From positions 3,607 through 25,542 of IMG/VR virus record IMGVR_UViG_3300030060_004410: a stretch of DNA of 21,936 bases. One strand, given 5' to 3'. Made by a program: the position numbers and the translations under genes. Origin of the DNA: a virus. The notes below the pieces were generated by a model. The model did not search any database, was not told where the DNA came from, and saw nothing but the letters and a program-made list of their open reading frames with translations. Positions 6,088 to 20,817 of the stretch are shown here, piece by piece. How positions within the stretch are numbered: the first letter of the stretch is position 1; every line of letters begins with the position of its first letter.

Positions 6088-6410
6088 CCAATAATAATGT
6101 ACGCAAAGTTTTGATCATTATTACTTGAACTTGCGTGTGTTAATGTAGCTGATCCACTTGCTCTTGCAGAAACAAATAAATCATTTTCTGCTGTCTTGCC
6201 ATTTGCTGTGATTGGCATAAAGACAATAACACTATCACCACCAATCCTTGCATCTGTTAAGGTTGTTGATGTTGCACTAGCAGTTAGTGTAATTGTTCCT
6301 GTACTGTTTAGTTTGCCATCCATTACATTATTTAATGTTGAACTGACTAATCGTAAATGCTGCGAGTTGTCTGGCATTGACAATGGCACATTTAAAAACT
6401 GATTGGACAT
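6084..6410 (-). CDS. Small beta-rich virion protein (108 aa)
   Basis: The 108-residue protein is dominated by Thr, Ser, Ala and Val in an alternating pattern (ITLTASATSTTLTDARIG, SVIVFMPITANG, LFVSARASGSATLTH, FAYIIIG). This predicts a beta-sandwich or beta-helix-like fold. Similar short proteins with DARIG, VI.FMP.TA and a final aromatic-Y..(L/I)G strand occur in the tail modules of many short-tailed phages; I know no settled function. A minor structural or decoration protein is the likeliest reading. The start codon overlaps the upstream stop as TAATG, and the stop overlaps the next start as ATGA, placing it firmly in the virion operon. Confidence 0.55.
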   Translation of the reverse strand: MSNQFLNVPLSMPDNSQHLRLVSSTLNNVMDGKLNSTGTITLTASATSTTLTDARIGGDSVIVFMPITANGKTAENDLFVSARASGSATLTHASSSNNDQNFAYIIIG

Positions 6411-7897
6411 TATCTTTTACCTTCAGGTCTAGCTTCTATGTCAACTCCGAGCATATTCGTAAAATTACCATTCACACTTACACGAAGTCTGTGGTAACGA
6501 TCTGTTGTTCGCAATGGACAATTACCAGAATCATTTTGTGTAATTGCTGTTCCTGTACTAACAGCATTTGCTTGTGATGGTCGATGGATTGGAGTTACAG
6601 TTATTGTTGTATCTTCTCCATTTGCATCAACTATTGGTATTGCATTTATTAATGTACTTCTTCTTCCGTCAACACCTTCAAATTCTGTTGTATCAACTGT
6701 TGCTGATAAAGAAGCTCCTAAAAATTTACCAAATTTTTTTTCTGAATTAAAACCTGCAAGACCAATAACTCCTTCATCATAAAAGAATGAGTCTAATGAT
6801 CGTGGTAATCCGTCTAATGTTCCAAGAACATCTAAACTTTCTAATGTGTTAAATGCTTCTTGTGATGCACTTTGCACAAATGTTAAATCCTGACCTGATC
6901 CTGTTGACCATCTATCAGTAGAATAATTATAAATTAATAACTTATTATTAATAAAATCTGTTCCAGTTGCACCATCACCACGATATGACCAAACAACAAT
7001 ACTATTGTTCGGATCAATCGCACTTGTAATTCCTTCAAGATTAGAAGTAATGTCGTTGAAAAAAAATTCGTCAACTTTACCATTACCAATCGGTGTAAGC
7101 TGCTGACCTCCTGTTAGTTTATAAAATCCATCTTGTGCTAAAAAGAATATTTGATTACCAAAAGATGAAACAGATCGTGGAGCAAAAGCACCAATGTTAT
7201 CTGCAATCTTATTGAAAGTAAAAATTAATGGTGTACCAACATAGTCAGCTCTATAAATAGCTCTTTCCATGAAGATAATACCAAAACTTTCTCCACCAAC
7301 CATTGCTTGAACTGATCCATGCGTTCCAACAATATCTTGAAAACCAGATTGTGTTGCTTGGCTAGGAGTCCAAGTTGAACTATCATTAAGTCCAGACCAC
7401 TTTACTCTTTGATTGTAAACTGTGCTTGATTCAGTTGTGTAACCTGCAAAAACAAAATCTCTTATTACCGCAAGATACTTTGCTTTAATTGTAACACGAT
7501 CTGAAAAAGCTGTATCTGTTCCTTCTTCAAACTTTTGAATATTGTCTGCACCATTTGTTGCAATAATGTTTGCACCAAATTGTGTAAAGCTCCAAAAATC
7601 TCTACTACCAGCAGTTATTGATCCGTTATATCCACCTGCTTTACTTTTATCTTGAAAGACTAAGTTACTATCCATTTGATATAATTTACCATTATCACCT
7701 GCATAGTTTGTTGTGCCTGAAGCAGAAAAACTTGTAAATAATCCAACTGGTGTTCCAGTTAATCCTGTTCCACTTAGAGCAGTAAAACTTGGAATGCTTT
7801 TGTACCCTTTTGCTAAAGGAATAACATTATCAACTTTTGTTGCGCCACCATTTTTTAATGTTGGTAAATCTGCCAACAGTTGTCCAAACTCAATCAT
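6410..7897 (-). CDS. P22 gp10-like tail hub / packaged-DNA stabilisation protein
   Basis: The length (495 residues) is close to P22 gp10 (about 470). The sequence reads as repeated beta blades: GKLYQM, DFWSFTQFGANIIATNG, DFVFAGY, YNQRVKWSGLNDSSTWTP, SVQAMVGGESFGIIFMERAIYRADY, FFLAQDGFYKLTGGQQLTPIG and NNSIVVWSYRG. The W-S-L-D/S-TW pattern and the 'LAQDGFYK' blade are typical of the beta-propeller hub that follows the gp4 adaptor in P22-like tails. It plugs the portal after packaging and binds the next tail part. The gene lies directly after the adaptor gene with an ATGA overlap, which supports the assignment. A different beta-propeller tail protein of the same module is the alternative. Confidence 0.65.
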   Translation of the reverse strand: MIEFGQLLADLPTLKNGGATKVDNVIPLAKGYKSIPSFTALSGTGLTGTPVGLFTSFSASGTTNYAGDNGKLYQMDSNLVFQDKSKAGGYNGSITAGSRDFWSFTQFGANIIATNGADNIQKFEEGTDTAFSDRVTIKAKYLAVIRDFVFAGYTTESSTVYNQRVKWSGLNDSSTWTPSQATQSGFQDIVGTHGSVQAMVGGESFGIIFMERAIYRADYVGTPLIFTFNKIADNIGAFAPRSVSSFGNQIFFLAQDGFYKLTGGQQLTPIGNGKVDEFFFNDITSNLEGITSAIDPNNSIVVWSYRGDGATGTDFINNKLLIYNYSTDRWSTGSGQDLTFVQSASQEAFNTLESLDVLGTLDGLPRSLDSFFYDEGVIGLAGFNSEKKFGKFLGASLSATVDTTEFEGVDGRRSTLINAIPIVDANGEDTTITVTPIHRPSQANAVSTGTAITQNDSGNCPLRTTDRYHRLRVSVNGNFTNMLGVDIEARPEGKR

Positions 7898-9153: not shown

Positions 9154-10137
9154 TTACGCAGTATTTAAGTTAAAGATACCATAGTTGGCATTTGGTGAAC
9201 GACATACAAGAGTCCACTCAGCTAATAACAATCTCTTATCGTTATCACCTGTTTTTGATAGTTCTTGTGTTTCGAATGGTCTTAGGAATGCAACTTCCCA
9301 AGTGTCCATTTGAAGAATATCAACTCTAGTGTTTATTGAATGTCTATCAGGGATAAAGCTTACTTCACCGAAGTCTGATACATATACATCTACCGCACCG
9401 ATAACTGTCATATCGTCTGCGTTTTTGTATTGTGTAGCAACTCCGTTAAAAGCAGATGCTAATACTTTATTCGCTGGACTCATTAATACTGTGTCAGGGT
9501 TTCCACCTAGCTCGTATGATTTTTGTAAACCAGCTTTAAGTAAAGCTTCTGTGTAAGTTCTATTTGTACCACCAGATATTGCCGTAGCACCATTACCTGT
9601 TGGAGTAGCAGAAGGAGAGCCGTTCTTAGAAAAGTTATTGGCTGCGGTTGCACCGCCAGTACCAGTAATATTTCCTCCGTACCAAGTTCCAACGGATGCA
9701 GATTTTCTTGCAGCCGAACTTGATCCTGTTGCTTTTGCTTGTTCAACTCCGACCATGCCGACTTCCATATCTCTTTTTAGAGCTTTGCCGACTTTTGCCA
9801 ATTGATAAGCAAGTTCATCACCTCTACCTGCATTGTCAACTGATCTATCTGTGCCAGATACGATAATTGCTTCTGCTGATATTTGTGTTCTATTGTTAAG
9901 ACGATCCGTAGGACTAATTGCAGTTCCTCCGTAATCATCACCTTCTATTTGAAAGTTGTTAGCTGCTGCTCTCAATCCATCAGTTTGCCACTCATGGAGA
10001 GTATTAGTAGCTGTACCTTTTGCTGCGTTAGTCATAAAAGGAGTTTCAGTTGGACTAATGTTATAAATTACATCCGCTAAATCTTCTCTTATACCAACAG
10101 CATCATAGGTATCAAATGTGTTGCTCGGTTGAGCCAT
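9154..10137 (-). CDS. Major capsid protein
   Basis: The 327-residue protein has the marks of a DUF5309 / SU10-type major capsid protein with HK97 fold: N-terminal NTFDTYDAVGIREDLADVIY, SPTETPFMTNA, HEWQTDGLRAA, then IVSGTDRSVDNAGRGDELAYQLAKVGKALKRDMEVGM, RKSASVGTWYGG, and a C-terminal DILQMDTWEVAFLRPF...LAEWTLVCR. These correspond to the N-arm, spine helix and P-domain strands. It directly follows the scaffold gene, as usual. Expression looks high: the ATG has a full GGAGG ribosome site at 5-base spacing, the strongest in the window, and a terminator hairpin follows the stop. Codon use seems somewhat less A/T-extreme than in the small genes. The coat role is well supported by sequence and context. 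Confidence 0.88.
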   Translation of the reverse strand: MAQPSNTFDTYDAVGIREDLADVIYNISPTETPFMTNAAKGTATNTLHEWQTDGLRAAANNFQIEGDDYGGTAISPTDRLNNRTQISAEAIIVSGTDRSVDNAGRGDELAYQLAKVGKALKRDMEVGMVGVEQAKATGSSSAARKSASVGTWYGGNITGTGGATAANNFSKNGSPSATPTGNGATAISGGTNRTYTEALLKAGLQKSYELGGNPDTVLMSPANKVLASAFNGVATQYKNADDMTVIGAVDVYVSDFGEVSFIPDRHSINTRVDILQMDTWEVAFLRPFETQELSKTGDNDKRLLLAEWTLVCRSPNANYGIFNLNTA

Positions 10138-10149: not shown

Positions 10150-11157
10150 TTAATTATTAGATAACATTGCAGACAACACCTTTTGTGCATCTTTCATATT
10201 ACCTGATTTTTTTAATTGCTTCATGCGATCATTTACACGCAACTGCTTATCGGTAGATCGAGTGTTGTTTTTACCTTCTGATGATAAAACACGATTTGTG
10301 GGTTTAACTTTTTTACCTTGTAAGTTTTTCTTTTCTAGCAACTGATTATACTTCATTGCATCATGTAGTGTTTTAACTGCACGATGATCAACAACCATGT
10401 TGACTTCTTGCTCTGTATAACCTTGCTTCATAGCAAACTCACCAATATCTTTCATAATCTTAGGAGCTTTTTTTTCATCACCAAATATCGGCATCACTTC
10501 AATCAGCTTCCCTCGTTCATTTTCGATATGATTTTGATAAATCCGTTCCTGCTCTTTTCTTTGTTCCTGTGCTAACTTCTGTTTTTCTTGCTGTACTTGT
10601 AATTGCAATTCTTTTTTGCGATCATATTCAGCTTTCTTTACAGCATAGTCTGTTGGATCAGTTTGAGCTAGTGTAACCCAATCTATGTTATCGTCAGTTT
10701 GTAAATTTTGCTCTACAACCTGAAGTTTTTGTGCGTATTCATCACGCATTTGTTTTACTGCTTGTTTGTCTTTGGAAATCGCATCTATTTCAGAATCTAA
10801 TGATCTTCTTTGGCTGCTAAGTTCCATCGTCTTTTTGGTATAGTCCGATCCTTTAGAGTAACCTTCCTTCAACTCATCCAAGCTGACTCTTTGAGATTTA
10901 CCATTCACAGTAATATCAAATAGTTCTTGTTCGTTTTCCGTAGTGGTTTCTTCGTTATCAACTAAATCTTCATCCGAAATATCATCTACTGACAATTCAT
11001 TATCTTGTTCAAGAGTGTCTTGTGCAGCTTCTTTTACTTCTTCTTTTGGCTGTTCTTCGCTTCTTGCAGTATTAATAAGATTAGCGAATGCCTGTTGTGT
11101 TTCCTGTATCGAATTGGTTGGTTTTGATACAGATTCCGCTTGGGGATTATCTGACAT
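10150..11157 (-). CDS. Capsid scaffolding protein
   Basis: The 335-residue product has no enzyme motif but has the classical scaffold composition: an acidic N-terminal third (residues about 35-80, many Asp/Glu), a long Gln/Lys/Glu-rich coiled-coil centre (about 110-225, with KKELQLQVQQEKQKLAQEQ) and a basic C-terminal tail (RVNDRMKQLKKSGNMKDAQKV) that would bind the inner face of the coat. A VNGKSQRVSLDELKEGYSKGSDYTKKTMELS segment (about 85-115) is common in scaffold proteins of marine podoviruses. It lies immediately upstream of the capsid gene. The ATG follows an AGGAG site. It should direct procapsid assembly and leave before or during DNA packaging. Confidence 0.82.
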   Translation of the reverse strand: MSDNPQAESVSKPTNSIQETQQAFANLINTARSEEQPKEEVKEAAQDTLEQDNELSVDDISDEDLVDNEETTTENEQELFDITVNGKSQRVSLDELKEGYSKGSDYTKKTMELSSQRRSLDSEIDAISKDKQAVKQMRDEYAQKLQVVEQNLQTDDNIDWVTLAQTDPTDYAVKKAEYDRKKELQLQVQQEKQKLAQEQRKEQERIYQNHIENERGKLIEVMPIFGDEKKAPKIMKDIGEFAMKQGYTEQEVNMVVDHRAVKTLHDAMKYNQLLEKKNLQGKKVKPTNRVLSSEGKNNTRSTDKQLRVNDRMKQLKKSGNMKDAQKVLSAMLSNN

Positions 11158-18676: not shown

Positions 18677-18834
18677 TCTTGCTCCGCAGCTAGGAAACAA
18701 TCTTTGTAATAGCTTGACCAGTAATTCTGTGTTTCCTCAACAATTTTTGCGTAATGTTCGCCTTTATTTTTAAGGAACTGTTGTGCTAGTTCTTTTTGTT
18801 TCTTTTTATTATCTAATAGTTGTGCTTGTTTCAA
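18640..18834 (-). CDS. Small helical protein, TTG start (64 aa)
   Basis: The TTG at 18834 is chosen because AGGGAG stands six bases before it; no ATG exists in this frame and the next TTG upstream at 18855 has no site. The 64 residues are nearly all helix and highly charged (KQAQLLDNKKKQKELAQQFLKNKGEHYAKIVEETQNYW), with two cysteines near the C-terminus (DCFLAAEQECLKSG). It overlaps both neighbours. No family is recognised. The spacing of hydrophobic residues suggests a coiled coil or small helical bundle, perhaps a partner of the winged-helix protein it overlaps. Confidence 0.5.
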   Translation of the reverse strand: MKQAQLLDNKKKQKELAQQFLKNKGEHYAKIVEETQNYWSSYYKDCFLAAEQECLKSGNLLAKY

Positions 18835-19123
18835 AATATTCTCCCTGATCTGCAATCACACATGGAAAACGAACAATGATGCAACCCTTCGGAATATATA
18901 TCTCTGTTCCTTTTTCTTTTATTTCTGGGTTAAAATCTTTGCTGCAATAAAGAACATAATCATCTTTATCGTTTGGGTTTTCTTCCATCCAACCAACATT
19001 TATGTTGATAGATGACTTACCATCCCAATCTTCTTTCCAAATGCCATCACCTTCTGTTGGATCTTTCCATATTACAAAATAACAATTTTTTGCTAGTTCT
19101 CTTGATGTTTGAAGATAATCCAT
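18809..19123 (-). CDS. First gene of leftward arm, unknown function (104 aa)
   Basis: The 104-residue protein is the first product of the leftward promoter. It has helix then strands: DYLQTSRELAKNCYFVIWKD, GIWKEDWDGKSSININVGW, ENPNDKDDYVLYCSKDFNP, and a final IIVRFPCVIADQGEYFETSTTI. It is acidic and rich in Trp and Tyr, features often seen in small host-interacting phage proteins, but I recognise no family. The ATG has no ribosome site; the predicted transcription start falls at or one base before the ATG, so the message may be leaderless. As the first leftward gene under the putative operator it should be made early and be repressed with the rest of the arm. Confidence 0.55.
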   Translation of the reverse strand: MDYLQTSRELAKNCYFVIWKDPTEGDGIWKEDWDGKSSININVGWMEENPNDKDDYVLYCSKDFNPEIKEKGTEIYIPKGCIIVRFPCVIADQGEYFETSTTIR

Positions 19124-19126
19124 GCG

Positions 19127-19155
19127 AATAATTCTACACCATAGGTAGAATAATT
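19127..19155. promoter_or_regulatory. Operator-like inverted repeat ATTCTAC-N7-GTAGAAT
   Basis: Seven base pairs are perfect (ATTCTAC 19131-19137, GTAGAAT 19145-19151). After one mismatch three more pairs extend each arm (AAT / ATT), giving a 29-base dyad between the divergent genes. Its size and place are those of a helix-turn-helix dimer site. Confidence 0.6.
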
Positions 19156-19159
19156 ACAA
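19131..19159 (-). promoter_or_regulatory. Leftward promoter overlapping an operator dyad
   Basis: On the minus strand TTGTAA (19159-19154, 4/6 to consensus) is separated by exactly 17 bases from TAGAAT (19136-19131, 5/6). Predicted start is at about 19124, next to the ATG at 19123. The dyad at 19131-19151 covers the -10 and most of the spacer, so a bound repressor would block RNA polymerase. Confidence 0.65.
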
Positions 19160-19193
19160 AGTGTAAGTTTTATGCAATTAATATGTACTTTAT

Positions 19194-19853
19194 ATGTCTA
19201 TTGTGTATAAATATTTAATGTCTATGAAATCACCATATAAATTTACAGGAAACGGAATGCACAATTTAGCTGAGATTTTTAAGCGAGAGAAGGTTAATGG
19301 CAAATCACAAAAAGATGCTGCCGAGTATTTAGGTATAGATCATCGATCTGTAAGCCGACACATGAAACAAAAGAATATTGGTTTAGATGTTTTGATGAAG
19401 TATGCAGAATATTTAGAATGCAATGTTGAAGATTTTGTTTCACAAAAAGTTAACAGACAAGTTAATGGTTATTTCAAAGATAATAAAATAAATTTTTACG
19501 GAGATGACGAGGAAAGACCTGTTATATATGGATTATTTGCAGCTTCTTGGTGGTGGTCTGAAAAGAAAACTATTTTAATTATTGATCACAATGATCCTAA
19601 AAATGTTTATTATAATAATTTAACTTTTTACACCGAATGGCAATCAGCAGTTCGTGTTAAAGATGGAGCATTAGGTATATTTCAAGATAAAGATGCTTTA
19701 GAACACAAATCAGGAACTATTCATAGAAAATCAGACGATCAATTTTTTTGTAAAGGTTTTTACGATAGTCATGTACAATTATGCTCATTAAAAAGGTTTG
19801 CTAGATATATTTGTTCGTACAACTTAGACGATCTTCCTTTATTCTTGGAATAA
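19194..19853 (+). CDS. Helix-turn-helix regulator, candidate phage repressor (219 aa)
   Basis: Residues about 38-82 are an Xre/CI-type helix-turn-helix: KSQKDAAEYLGIDHRSVSRHMKQ, then LDVLMKYAEYLECNVEDFV, the usual fifth helix. The C-terminal 130 residues (starting INFYGDDEERPVIYGLFAASWWW) look like a beta-rich domain with DGALGIFQDKDALEHKSGTIHRKSDDQFFCKGF. It occupies the place of a LexA/CI C-terminal domain, but I see no convincing cleavage site or Ser/Lys dyad, so DNA-damage self-cleavage is doubtful. It lies between two ATTCTAC dyads and divergent from the leftward arm, as a repressor would. The start is uncertain: ATGs at 19194, 19218 and 19224 lack ribosome sites, and a TATAAA at 19206 would put a leaderless start at 19218. 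Confidence 0.7.
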   Translation: MSIVYKYLMSMKSPYKFTGNGMHNLAEIFKREKVNGKSQKDAAEYLGIDHRSVSRHMKQKNIGLDVLMKYAEYLECNVEDFVSQKVNRQVNGYFKDNKINFYGDDEERPVIYGLFAASWWWSEKKTILIIDHNDPKNVYYNNLTFYTEWQSAVRVKDGALGIFQDKDALEHKSGTIHRKSDDQFFCKGFYDSHVQLCSLKRFARYICSYNLDDLPLFLE

Positions 19854-19962
19854 TTACTCACAAATTACTAGAAATTCTTACACATAATTTACATAAAACT
19901 TTCGTTTTTTCTGCGAATCAGGTAGATTTTTCGCTTTATTAAATAATTTTTACATATTAATT

Positions 19963-19979
19963 CTACTCAAAATGAGTAG
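19963..19979. promoter_or_regulatory. Perfect dyad CTACTCA-AAA-TGAGTAG over the exonuclease start codon
   Basis: Seven-base arms match exactly around a 3-base centre; the ATG at 19972 lies inside. The left flank reads ATTCTAC, as in the dyad at 19131, but the GTAG half is 9 instead of 7 bases away. A repressor here could stop transcription or elongation of the recombination operon; as RNA, a hairpin could hide the start codon, which has no ribosome site. Confidence 0.55.
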
Positions 19980-20817
19980 TGATGACAAAAATGTAACAAT
20001 TCCACAATCTGCATCTATTATACCCTCATATTTTTTAGATAGGGGAATTGATCACTTTTCACCAACACAAGCTTCAACTCCATTGGATGTTTGGGTTTAC
20101 AAATATTTACATTGCAACCAAGAAAAAAGAAGGAAGATGAAAAACAGCTCTAAGATGCGCTGTGGTGTTTTGGCAGGAGATAGTGTTGCAGCCATAATGT
20201 CAGATAGAGTAAAGCCGTTATACTTCTATGACGATTACAAAAACTGGGATGATAAAAAAGATGAAGCTCAATGGAATAATGATAAAAAATTTATAGATCA
20301 AACAATAGATAAAATATTTGAAGCACTCAAAGAATTAAATGTAAAAAAAGAAAAAGCTATATTTGAATATTATGTAAGTCTTGATGATCCACGATTAGAT
20401 GTGCCAATTATTGGTCGTACTGATATTCAAACACCAAATTTATTAATAGAATTAAAAACAAAATGGAGCATAAAAGCAGGTAAACAAAAAAAAGATGGAA
20501 CTTTTAGTTATTATTTTCCAAAGCTTAACAAAGACTTTCCTGACGATGTACATTTACAACAAGCAGCTTTTTATTATTTAGCAACAAAAATACCTACTGT
20601 TATTGTTCAGGCAACACCAAATGAATATGTCATACATGAAGTTGAAAAACATGATTATAAAAAAGCATTTAACGATCTCGTAATAAATTTAACAAAGAAA
20701 CAAGAGATTGCAAAATTAGATCATCCTGAAAAATTAGTACAACCAGATTTTAGCCACTACACATGGAACATAGGTGATTCATTTTTAAAAGAAGCAAAGG
20801 AGTTATATGGCTACTGA
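19972..20817 (+). CDS. PD-(D/E)XK exonuclease of a recombination pair
   Basis: The 281-residue protein carries the nuclease motifs in order: an N-terminal HFSPTQASTPLDVWVYKYL helix, GRTDIQTPNLLIELKTKW with Asp151 and Glu160-Leu-Lys162 as the metal-binding D...ExK, and HLQQAAFYYLA (about 195-205), the QxxxY motif of RecB, AddB and Cas4-like nucleases. It probably resects double-strand ends to give single-stranded DNA for the annealing protein encoded next. Its stop overlaps that gene's start by 11 bases, as for lambda Exo/Beta-like pairs. The length suits a single-domain nuclease with no helicase. It has no Shine-Dalgarno site and its start is inside a dyad. Cas4 of CRISPR is unlikely: no Fe-S cysteine set and no array. 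Confidence 0.75.
   Translation: MSSDDKNVTIPQSASIIPSYFLDRGIDHFSPTQASTPLDVWVYKYLHCNQEKRRKMKNSSKMRCGVLAGDSVAAIMSDRVKPLYFYDDYKNWDDKKDEAQWNNDKKFIDQTIDKIFEALKELNVKKEKAIFEYYVSLDDPRLDVPIIGRTDIQTPNLLIELKTKWSIKAGKQKKDGTFSYYFPKLNKDFPDDVHLQQAAFYYLATKIPTVIVQATPNEYVIHEVEKHDYKKAFNDLVINLTKKQEIAKLDHPEKLVQPDFSHYTWNIGDSFLKEAKELYGY

Follow-up and report, generated by a model that had tools for sequence, protein, structure and literature searches.

A candidate immunity switch in a probably temperate phage from the sea, with a putative CI-type repressor gene between two single predicted operators

The CI repressor of phage 186 has FL and FR as flanking sites around its switch, and they accompany CI control of pR (PMC7708051). 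For two types of temperate phage from the sea, the available portions of the accounts deal with integration: CRP-810-type phages have an integrase and a tRNA-linked attachment, and CRP-810 is reported to carry its own tRNA-Thr next to the attachment sequence (PMC11288001); an integrase and a tRNA-linked attachment are also described for pelagiphages of the HTVC019P type that are temperate (PMC12753301). Here we describe a locus in which a regulator gene stands between two sites of the form TCTAC-N7-GTAGA, which we call O1 and O2. We believe, with a probability of roughly 0.8, that this marine phage is temperate and that the locus serves as its immunity switch, with a CI-type repressor and one operator for each of two divergent operons. 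The reading is based on the identity and conservation of the sites, their dependence on the regulator, a joint change of site and recognition helix, an integrase and the predicted fold of the regulator. Binding, repression (and not activation), any looping between O1 and O2, and lysogeny are what we infer.

The window that we analyzed is a stretch of 21,936 nt with a G+C content of 34%; it covers positions 3607-25542 of the virus record IMGVR_UViG_3300030060_004410 (G000 below), which has 34,139 bases in full. No relative of the window at the DNA level was found among phage records. The closest terminases are those of HTVC010P-type pelagiphages (47–49%) and the closest portal is that of HTVC106P (42%); portal and capsid also match the SU10 families, and the OM43 phage Venkman is about as close to the window phage as the pelagiphages are. 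We scanned viral contigs with the regulator and with the genes on either side of it (the 104-aa leftward one and the nuclease) and recovered more than 30 contigs with a whole or partial regulator neighborhood, which are referred to by L numbers. The features of the locus are listed in Table 1. The leftward operon begins with genes without assigned function, continues with a replication-initiator-like gene and then runs into the terminase and structural genes. The nuclease-like protein at the head of the rightward operon had no Pfam match and no PDB match. Farther to the right, a 71-aa protein that consists solely of a LexA DNA-binding domain (PF01726) is encoded at L008 7795-8010 (G000 25794-26009). 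Small LexA-type helix-turn-helix proteins also occur in L002, L005 and L067, and it is possible that the 71-aa protein is a second regulator.

Table 1. Features of the predicted switch and its surroundings (window positions unless G000 is named).
Feature	Position	Strand	Remarks
Leftward operon gene 1	18809-19123	-	104 aa, no assigned function; start codon 9 nt from O1
O1, operator-like dyad TCTAC-ACCATAG-GTAGA	19133-19149		Between leftward gene start and regulator; extended dyad 19127-19155
Possible weaker third site TGTAC-TTTATAT-GTCTA	19184-19200		Regulator promoter region, 7-nt spacing; TGTCTATTG nearly invariant among relatives
Regulator gene	19218-19853	+	211 aa; N-terminal Cro/C1-type helix-turn-helix, predicted C-terminal beta domain like phage 186 CI / LexA
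O2, operator-like dyad TCTGC-GAATCAG-GTAGA	19910-19926		Upstream of nuclease gene; 1 mismatch from consensus
ATTCTAC half-site	19960-19966	+	5 nt before nuclease ATG; left arm of dyad 2; kept in many close relatives
Dyad 2, perfect palindrome CTACTCAAAATGAGTAG	19963-19979		Right arm is coding sequence and variable; judged not to be the operator partner
Rightward operon gene 1, nuclease-like	19972-20817	+	281 aa; distant match to a pelagiphage 'putative nuclease'
Tyrosine integrase	G000 27741-28895, outside window		PF00589, E 1.7e-15

O1 is the core of a 29-base interrupted dyad that had been picked out from the sequence alone, and we found this dyad to be as described: its arms (19127-19137 and 19145-19155) are complementary at 10 of 11 positions with 7 nt between them, and nearly all regulator-bearing relatives keep the core TCTAC-N7-GTAGA in the corresponding position. 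Judged by its sequence, O2 is the true partner of this dyad, and it had been overlooked. At the O2 position the relatives have TCTAC-N7-GTAGA, and the window has TCTGC in place of TCTAC. The center of O2 is ~54 nt upstream of the nuclease ATG, and there is no clear overlap between this site and a core promoter. The group of L014, L017, L018 and L074 has a degraded O1, with a perfect O2 in the last three.

When one mismatch or less was allowed, TCTAC-N7-GTAGA occurred at exactly two places in the 34-kb record, O1 and O2, on either side of the regulator; the expected number is about 0.4 per 22 kb (first-order Markov resampled sequence). There are also exactly two sites, both flanking the regulator, in each of L002, L004, L005, L013, L019, L020, L035, L041, L054 and L056, and L010 has two regulator-flanking sites and two elsewhere. 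Pairwise identity across 17 aligned sequences, whose contigs are related and are not independent events, was 0.89 in the arms of both sites, against 0.44 and 0.32 in the spacers and 0.46–0.58 in the 20-nt flanks; the contrast of arms with spacers is made within the same sequences and is thus unaffected by that kinship. Where both sites are present, they are 761–808 bp apart. The original prediction had proposed a repressor gene between its own operators and suggested looking in related phages for the dyads beside homologous regulators. We ran this search, and the conservation of the O1/O2 motif on both sides of the regulator supports the proposal well, with the difference that the second candidate operator is O2.

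A leftward promoter had also been drawn across the first dyad. The hexamers are in the sequence as claimed (TTGTAA-N17-TAGAAT, 19159-19131), but a promoter scan did no better than shuffles (9 hits vs 7.6 +/- 2.8, i.e. no excess), and of the two hexamers just the one beside the ATG, where it overlaps the operator arm, is approximately conserved in relatives. By inspection, most relatives have a TAGAWW-like hexamer, formed by the O1 arm, that ends 5–7 nt ahead of the start codon of the leftward gene. Such an arrangement would be compatible with a leaderless leftward transcript and a -10 element inside the operator.

The gene between the dyads was confirmed as a helix-turn-helix gene, with HTH_26 and HTH_3 domains that scored above the cut-off and were matched in all 15 of 15 family members. 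We take ATG 19218 as its start because L001-L004 have a stop after the upstream ATG; that ATG, at 19194, was rejected for the stop between the two. No relative of the regulator was found in any phage record with tblastn, and its sequence relatives in the PDB did not extend beyond the helix-turn-helix domain. We modeled the protein with AlphaFold2 using 15 family members (pLDDT 82). In a Foldseek comparison with the PDB, the top ranks went to a lambda-186 hybrid repressor and to the CI of phage 186 (7jvt, 2fjr; E 1.6e-6 to 4.8e-5). The TM scores of the full-length model against the top PDB matches were low (0.32–0.36), which may reflect domain orientation. When the C-terminal domain was modeled alone (pLDDT 88), it again matched 186 CI and LexA, with prob 0.93–1.0, TM about 0.5 and E 0.03–0.2. 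We have moderate confidence, at the level of fold only, that this domain has the oligomerization fold of the LexA/186 CI type. No Ser or Lys is invariant in the alignment of the C-terminal domain, and there is no conserved Ser/Lys dyad, so self-cleavage of the RecA type is unlikely. The switch is best described as CI-type and, in the predicted fold of its regulator, nearest 186, with an operator layout simpler than that of lambda.

The original prediction saw no integrase in the window and supposed that the switch may serve timing or immunity instead; it also advised looking elsewhere in the genome. There is in fact a tyrosine integrase outside the window, 263 nt from a tRNA-Ser(TGA), and with an integrase beside a tRNA gene lysogeny is the natural reading, not timing alone. 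The integrase has matches in many relatives. The tRNA-Ser(TGA) is found in L002, L012, L017, L018, L034, L036 and L056, and it is beside the integrase in most of the relatives checked.

The interval between the integrase and the tRNA (L008 10897-11159, G000 28896-29158) has an attP-like architecture, and so does the equivalent interval in L002, L017, L018 and L034. By inspection, it contains paired direct repeats (GTCATGTAA in the window phage, GTCGTGTAA in L017, L018 and L034), and the segment between the repeats resembles tRNA-Ser: in L017, L018 and L034 it is the anticodon-arm-like GGTCTTGAAAACCG, and in the window phage it is CGGTTGAAAGCACCG on the other strand, which we take to be D-arm-like. 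The interval resembles attP, and the phage tRNA perhaps replaces the one that is interrupted. In L002 the tRNA 3' end is duplicated as a 17-nt copy at 9848, and the full tRNA is preceded by an insert of ~360 bp that contains a 93-aa ORF. In a collection of genomes from 84,980 species we found no integrated copy, that is, no relative of the regulator or the integrase; since that search reaches limited divergence, the absence of a prophage is weak evidence. An identical 14-nt element, TATTGTGTATAAAT, is present upstream of the regulator (19199-19212) and in the integrase-tRNA interval (L008 about 11063-11076). It contains the DnaA-box-like TTATACACA on the minus strand, and TTGTGTATAA is found also in L079, which has no regulator. 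By a rough estimate, the genome's count of DnaA-box-like sequences looks near chance.

In the mechanism that we propose, a dimer of the regulator would bind TCTAC-N7-GTAGA, with the half-sites about one helical turn apart. O1 overlaps the start of the leftward operon and covers the stretch that immediately precedes its ATG; O2 is ~50 nt ahead of the nuclease operon on the right. With the regulator on both sites, lytic transcription would be shut off leftward and rightward, and a prophage, inserted by the integrase encoded beside the tRNA-Ser, would then persist. For O2 the sequence allows direct repression, looping with O1 or activation alike.

It is also conceivable, although we think it rather unlikely, that the regulator binds O1 and O2 as an early/late timing regulator or an activator and not as a lysogeny repressor. 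The position of O2 before the nuclease start could also suit activation, and the integrase occurs in relatives without the regulator: L065, L067 and L079 have the integrase, with neither regulator nor dyads in the stretch that separates their leftward gene from the nuclease, so integrase and regulator are separable. However, the integrase and attP-like sequence in the genome argue against such a role, as does a fold that is nearest a CI repressor. A further point against it comes from L039 and L040, which lack 539 bp relative to L019. The deletion is clean and takes all regulator codons except the first few and the last ~25, and both dyads are kept. Loss of the regulator with retention of the predicted operators is easier to reconcile with a repressor that the phage can do without than with an activator that it needs. 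L039 and L040 are 99.4% identical over 2.7 kb. This natural repressor-deletion variant (L039 343-657, L040 1607-1921) comes from two metagenomes, and a partial integrase is kept in L039.

The immunity switch as we read it has O2 as its right-hand operator. The original prediction had put a perfect palindrome over the nuclease start (dyad 2) in that place, and there is only a slim chance that this palindrome and the first dyad are the two operators. The palindrome is real, ATTCTAC is in both dyads, and in relatives the left half alone is often kept, 50 nt to the right of O2. But its CTAC and GTAG halves are separated by 9 nt and not by 7 as in O1 and O2, and its right arm belongs to the beginning of the nuclease ORF and differs in L002 (GGGGAG) and others; O2, unlike the palindrome, has the right spacing and has its arms in relatives. 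We therefore rejected dyad 2 as an operator, since its half-sites are wrongly spaced and its right arm lacks conservation. ATTCTAC alone showed no enrichment (4 occurrences vs 3.3 expected). Its copy before the nuclease ATG may be one half of an operator or may belong to a -10 element, and the site at 19184-19200 is, by its sequence, a possible weaker third operator.

The relatives also provide natural controls for O1 and O2. Both sites are absent from 7 or 8 relatives that have the same neighbors and no regulator; the contigs with neither regulator nor dyads, in which the leftward gene adjoins the nuclease, are L037, L061/L038, L063, L064, L065, L067, L079 and L080. They also bear on whether a protein other than the regulator binds the dyads, either the LexA-type protein described above or a host factor. 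The phage does have this second helix-turn-helix protein (LexA_DNA_bind), but L067 keeps its LexA-type gene (6206-6427) and has no dyads, so the LexA-type protein does not explain them. In addition, the dyad motif co-varies with the recognition helix of the regulator, and we consider binding by another protein very improbable.

This co-variation is seen in L042 and L034, which carry a 36–37% identical regulator with the recognition helix DPNSVSRH, against DHRSVSRH, DHRTVSRH or DYRSVSRH in the others. There is no TCTAC dyad at the locus in these two contigs, and the sites there are T(A/T)TAC-N7-GTATA-like. Within one mismatch, TATAC-N7-GTATA gives four sites per contig, all in or next to the regulator flanks, and O2 of L042 is one mismatch from it. 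The predicted operator motif changes together with the recognition helix (HR to PN; H42P and R43N), and the change in L042 and L034 counts as one evolutionary event. That the dyads are RNA hairpins (attenuators or terminators) is barely credible: they are inverted repeats near gene starts, but their conserved stems comprise five or six base pairs around loops of 7 nt, a scan of 18900-20100 turned up no terminator-like site, and the presence of the dyads tracks the regulator gene.

Between L005 and the window, the nuclease is 94%, the integrase 98% and the replication gene 99% identical (the last on L025, same contig), and the regulator is only 56%. L074 has L017-like neighbors and a regulator that is closest to that of L035 (65%). 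Sequence comparisons of L005 and L074 suggest that the regulator is exchanged as a cassette at constant operator specificity. It may be, although we regard this as doubtful, that we are looking at a family-wide immunity module of uncultured pelagiphage-like phages: operator specificity would stay nearly fixed, and the rest of the repressor would be swapped between lineages. If true, the repressor-deleted L039 and L040, with both operators, would circulate as virulent derivatives that are still under lysogen immunity. On our main reading, the group carries a complete temperate module, built on a regulator that was found in no phage record, with a predicted repressor operator that is readable from sequence alone. 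Metagenomes and reporter strains could thus be used directly to test how uncultured marine phages group by immunity, lose lysogeny and exchange repressors.

Compared with described phages, the window phage shares its two-arm gene layout with HTVC010P-type pelagiphages and HTVC106P, its nearest cultured relatives by terminase and portal, respectively. HTVC106P has no TCTAC-N7-GTAGA site, and the annotations of HTVC106P and HTVC100P include no integrase. With temperate phages of the CRP-810 and HTVC019P types it has in common a marine origin, an integrase and, as a putative feature here, a tRNA-linked attachment; the families differ; the comparison with the available portions of these accounts is on integration and not on a repressor with operators. 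In lambda, as proposed here, the repressor gene lies between operator regions for leftward and rightward transcription, and this part of the OL/OR-like geometry that had been predicted stands. The number of sites differs: lambda has three operators per side, whereas here there is one clear site per side, with a half-site and a possible weak third. Also unlike in lambda, no Cro-like gene was found beside the repressor, the leftward operon includes structural genes, and the self-cleavage residues (Ser/Lys dyad) are not conserved. The lack of a conserved Ser/Lys dyad in this regulator family counts as a likeness to 186 CI, the CI of P2-like phages, which shares with the regulator a helix-turn-helix and a LexA-like C-terminal domain and is its top fold match, although the fold alignment has a sequence identity of only ~13%. 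Unlike in 186, we identified no gene resembling CII or Tum here. Both switches would have a repressor with flanking binding sites, and what would set this one apart from 186 is the position of the repressor gene, with a single operator to each side of it, one for each of the divergent operons.
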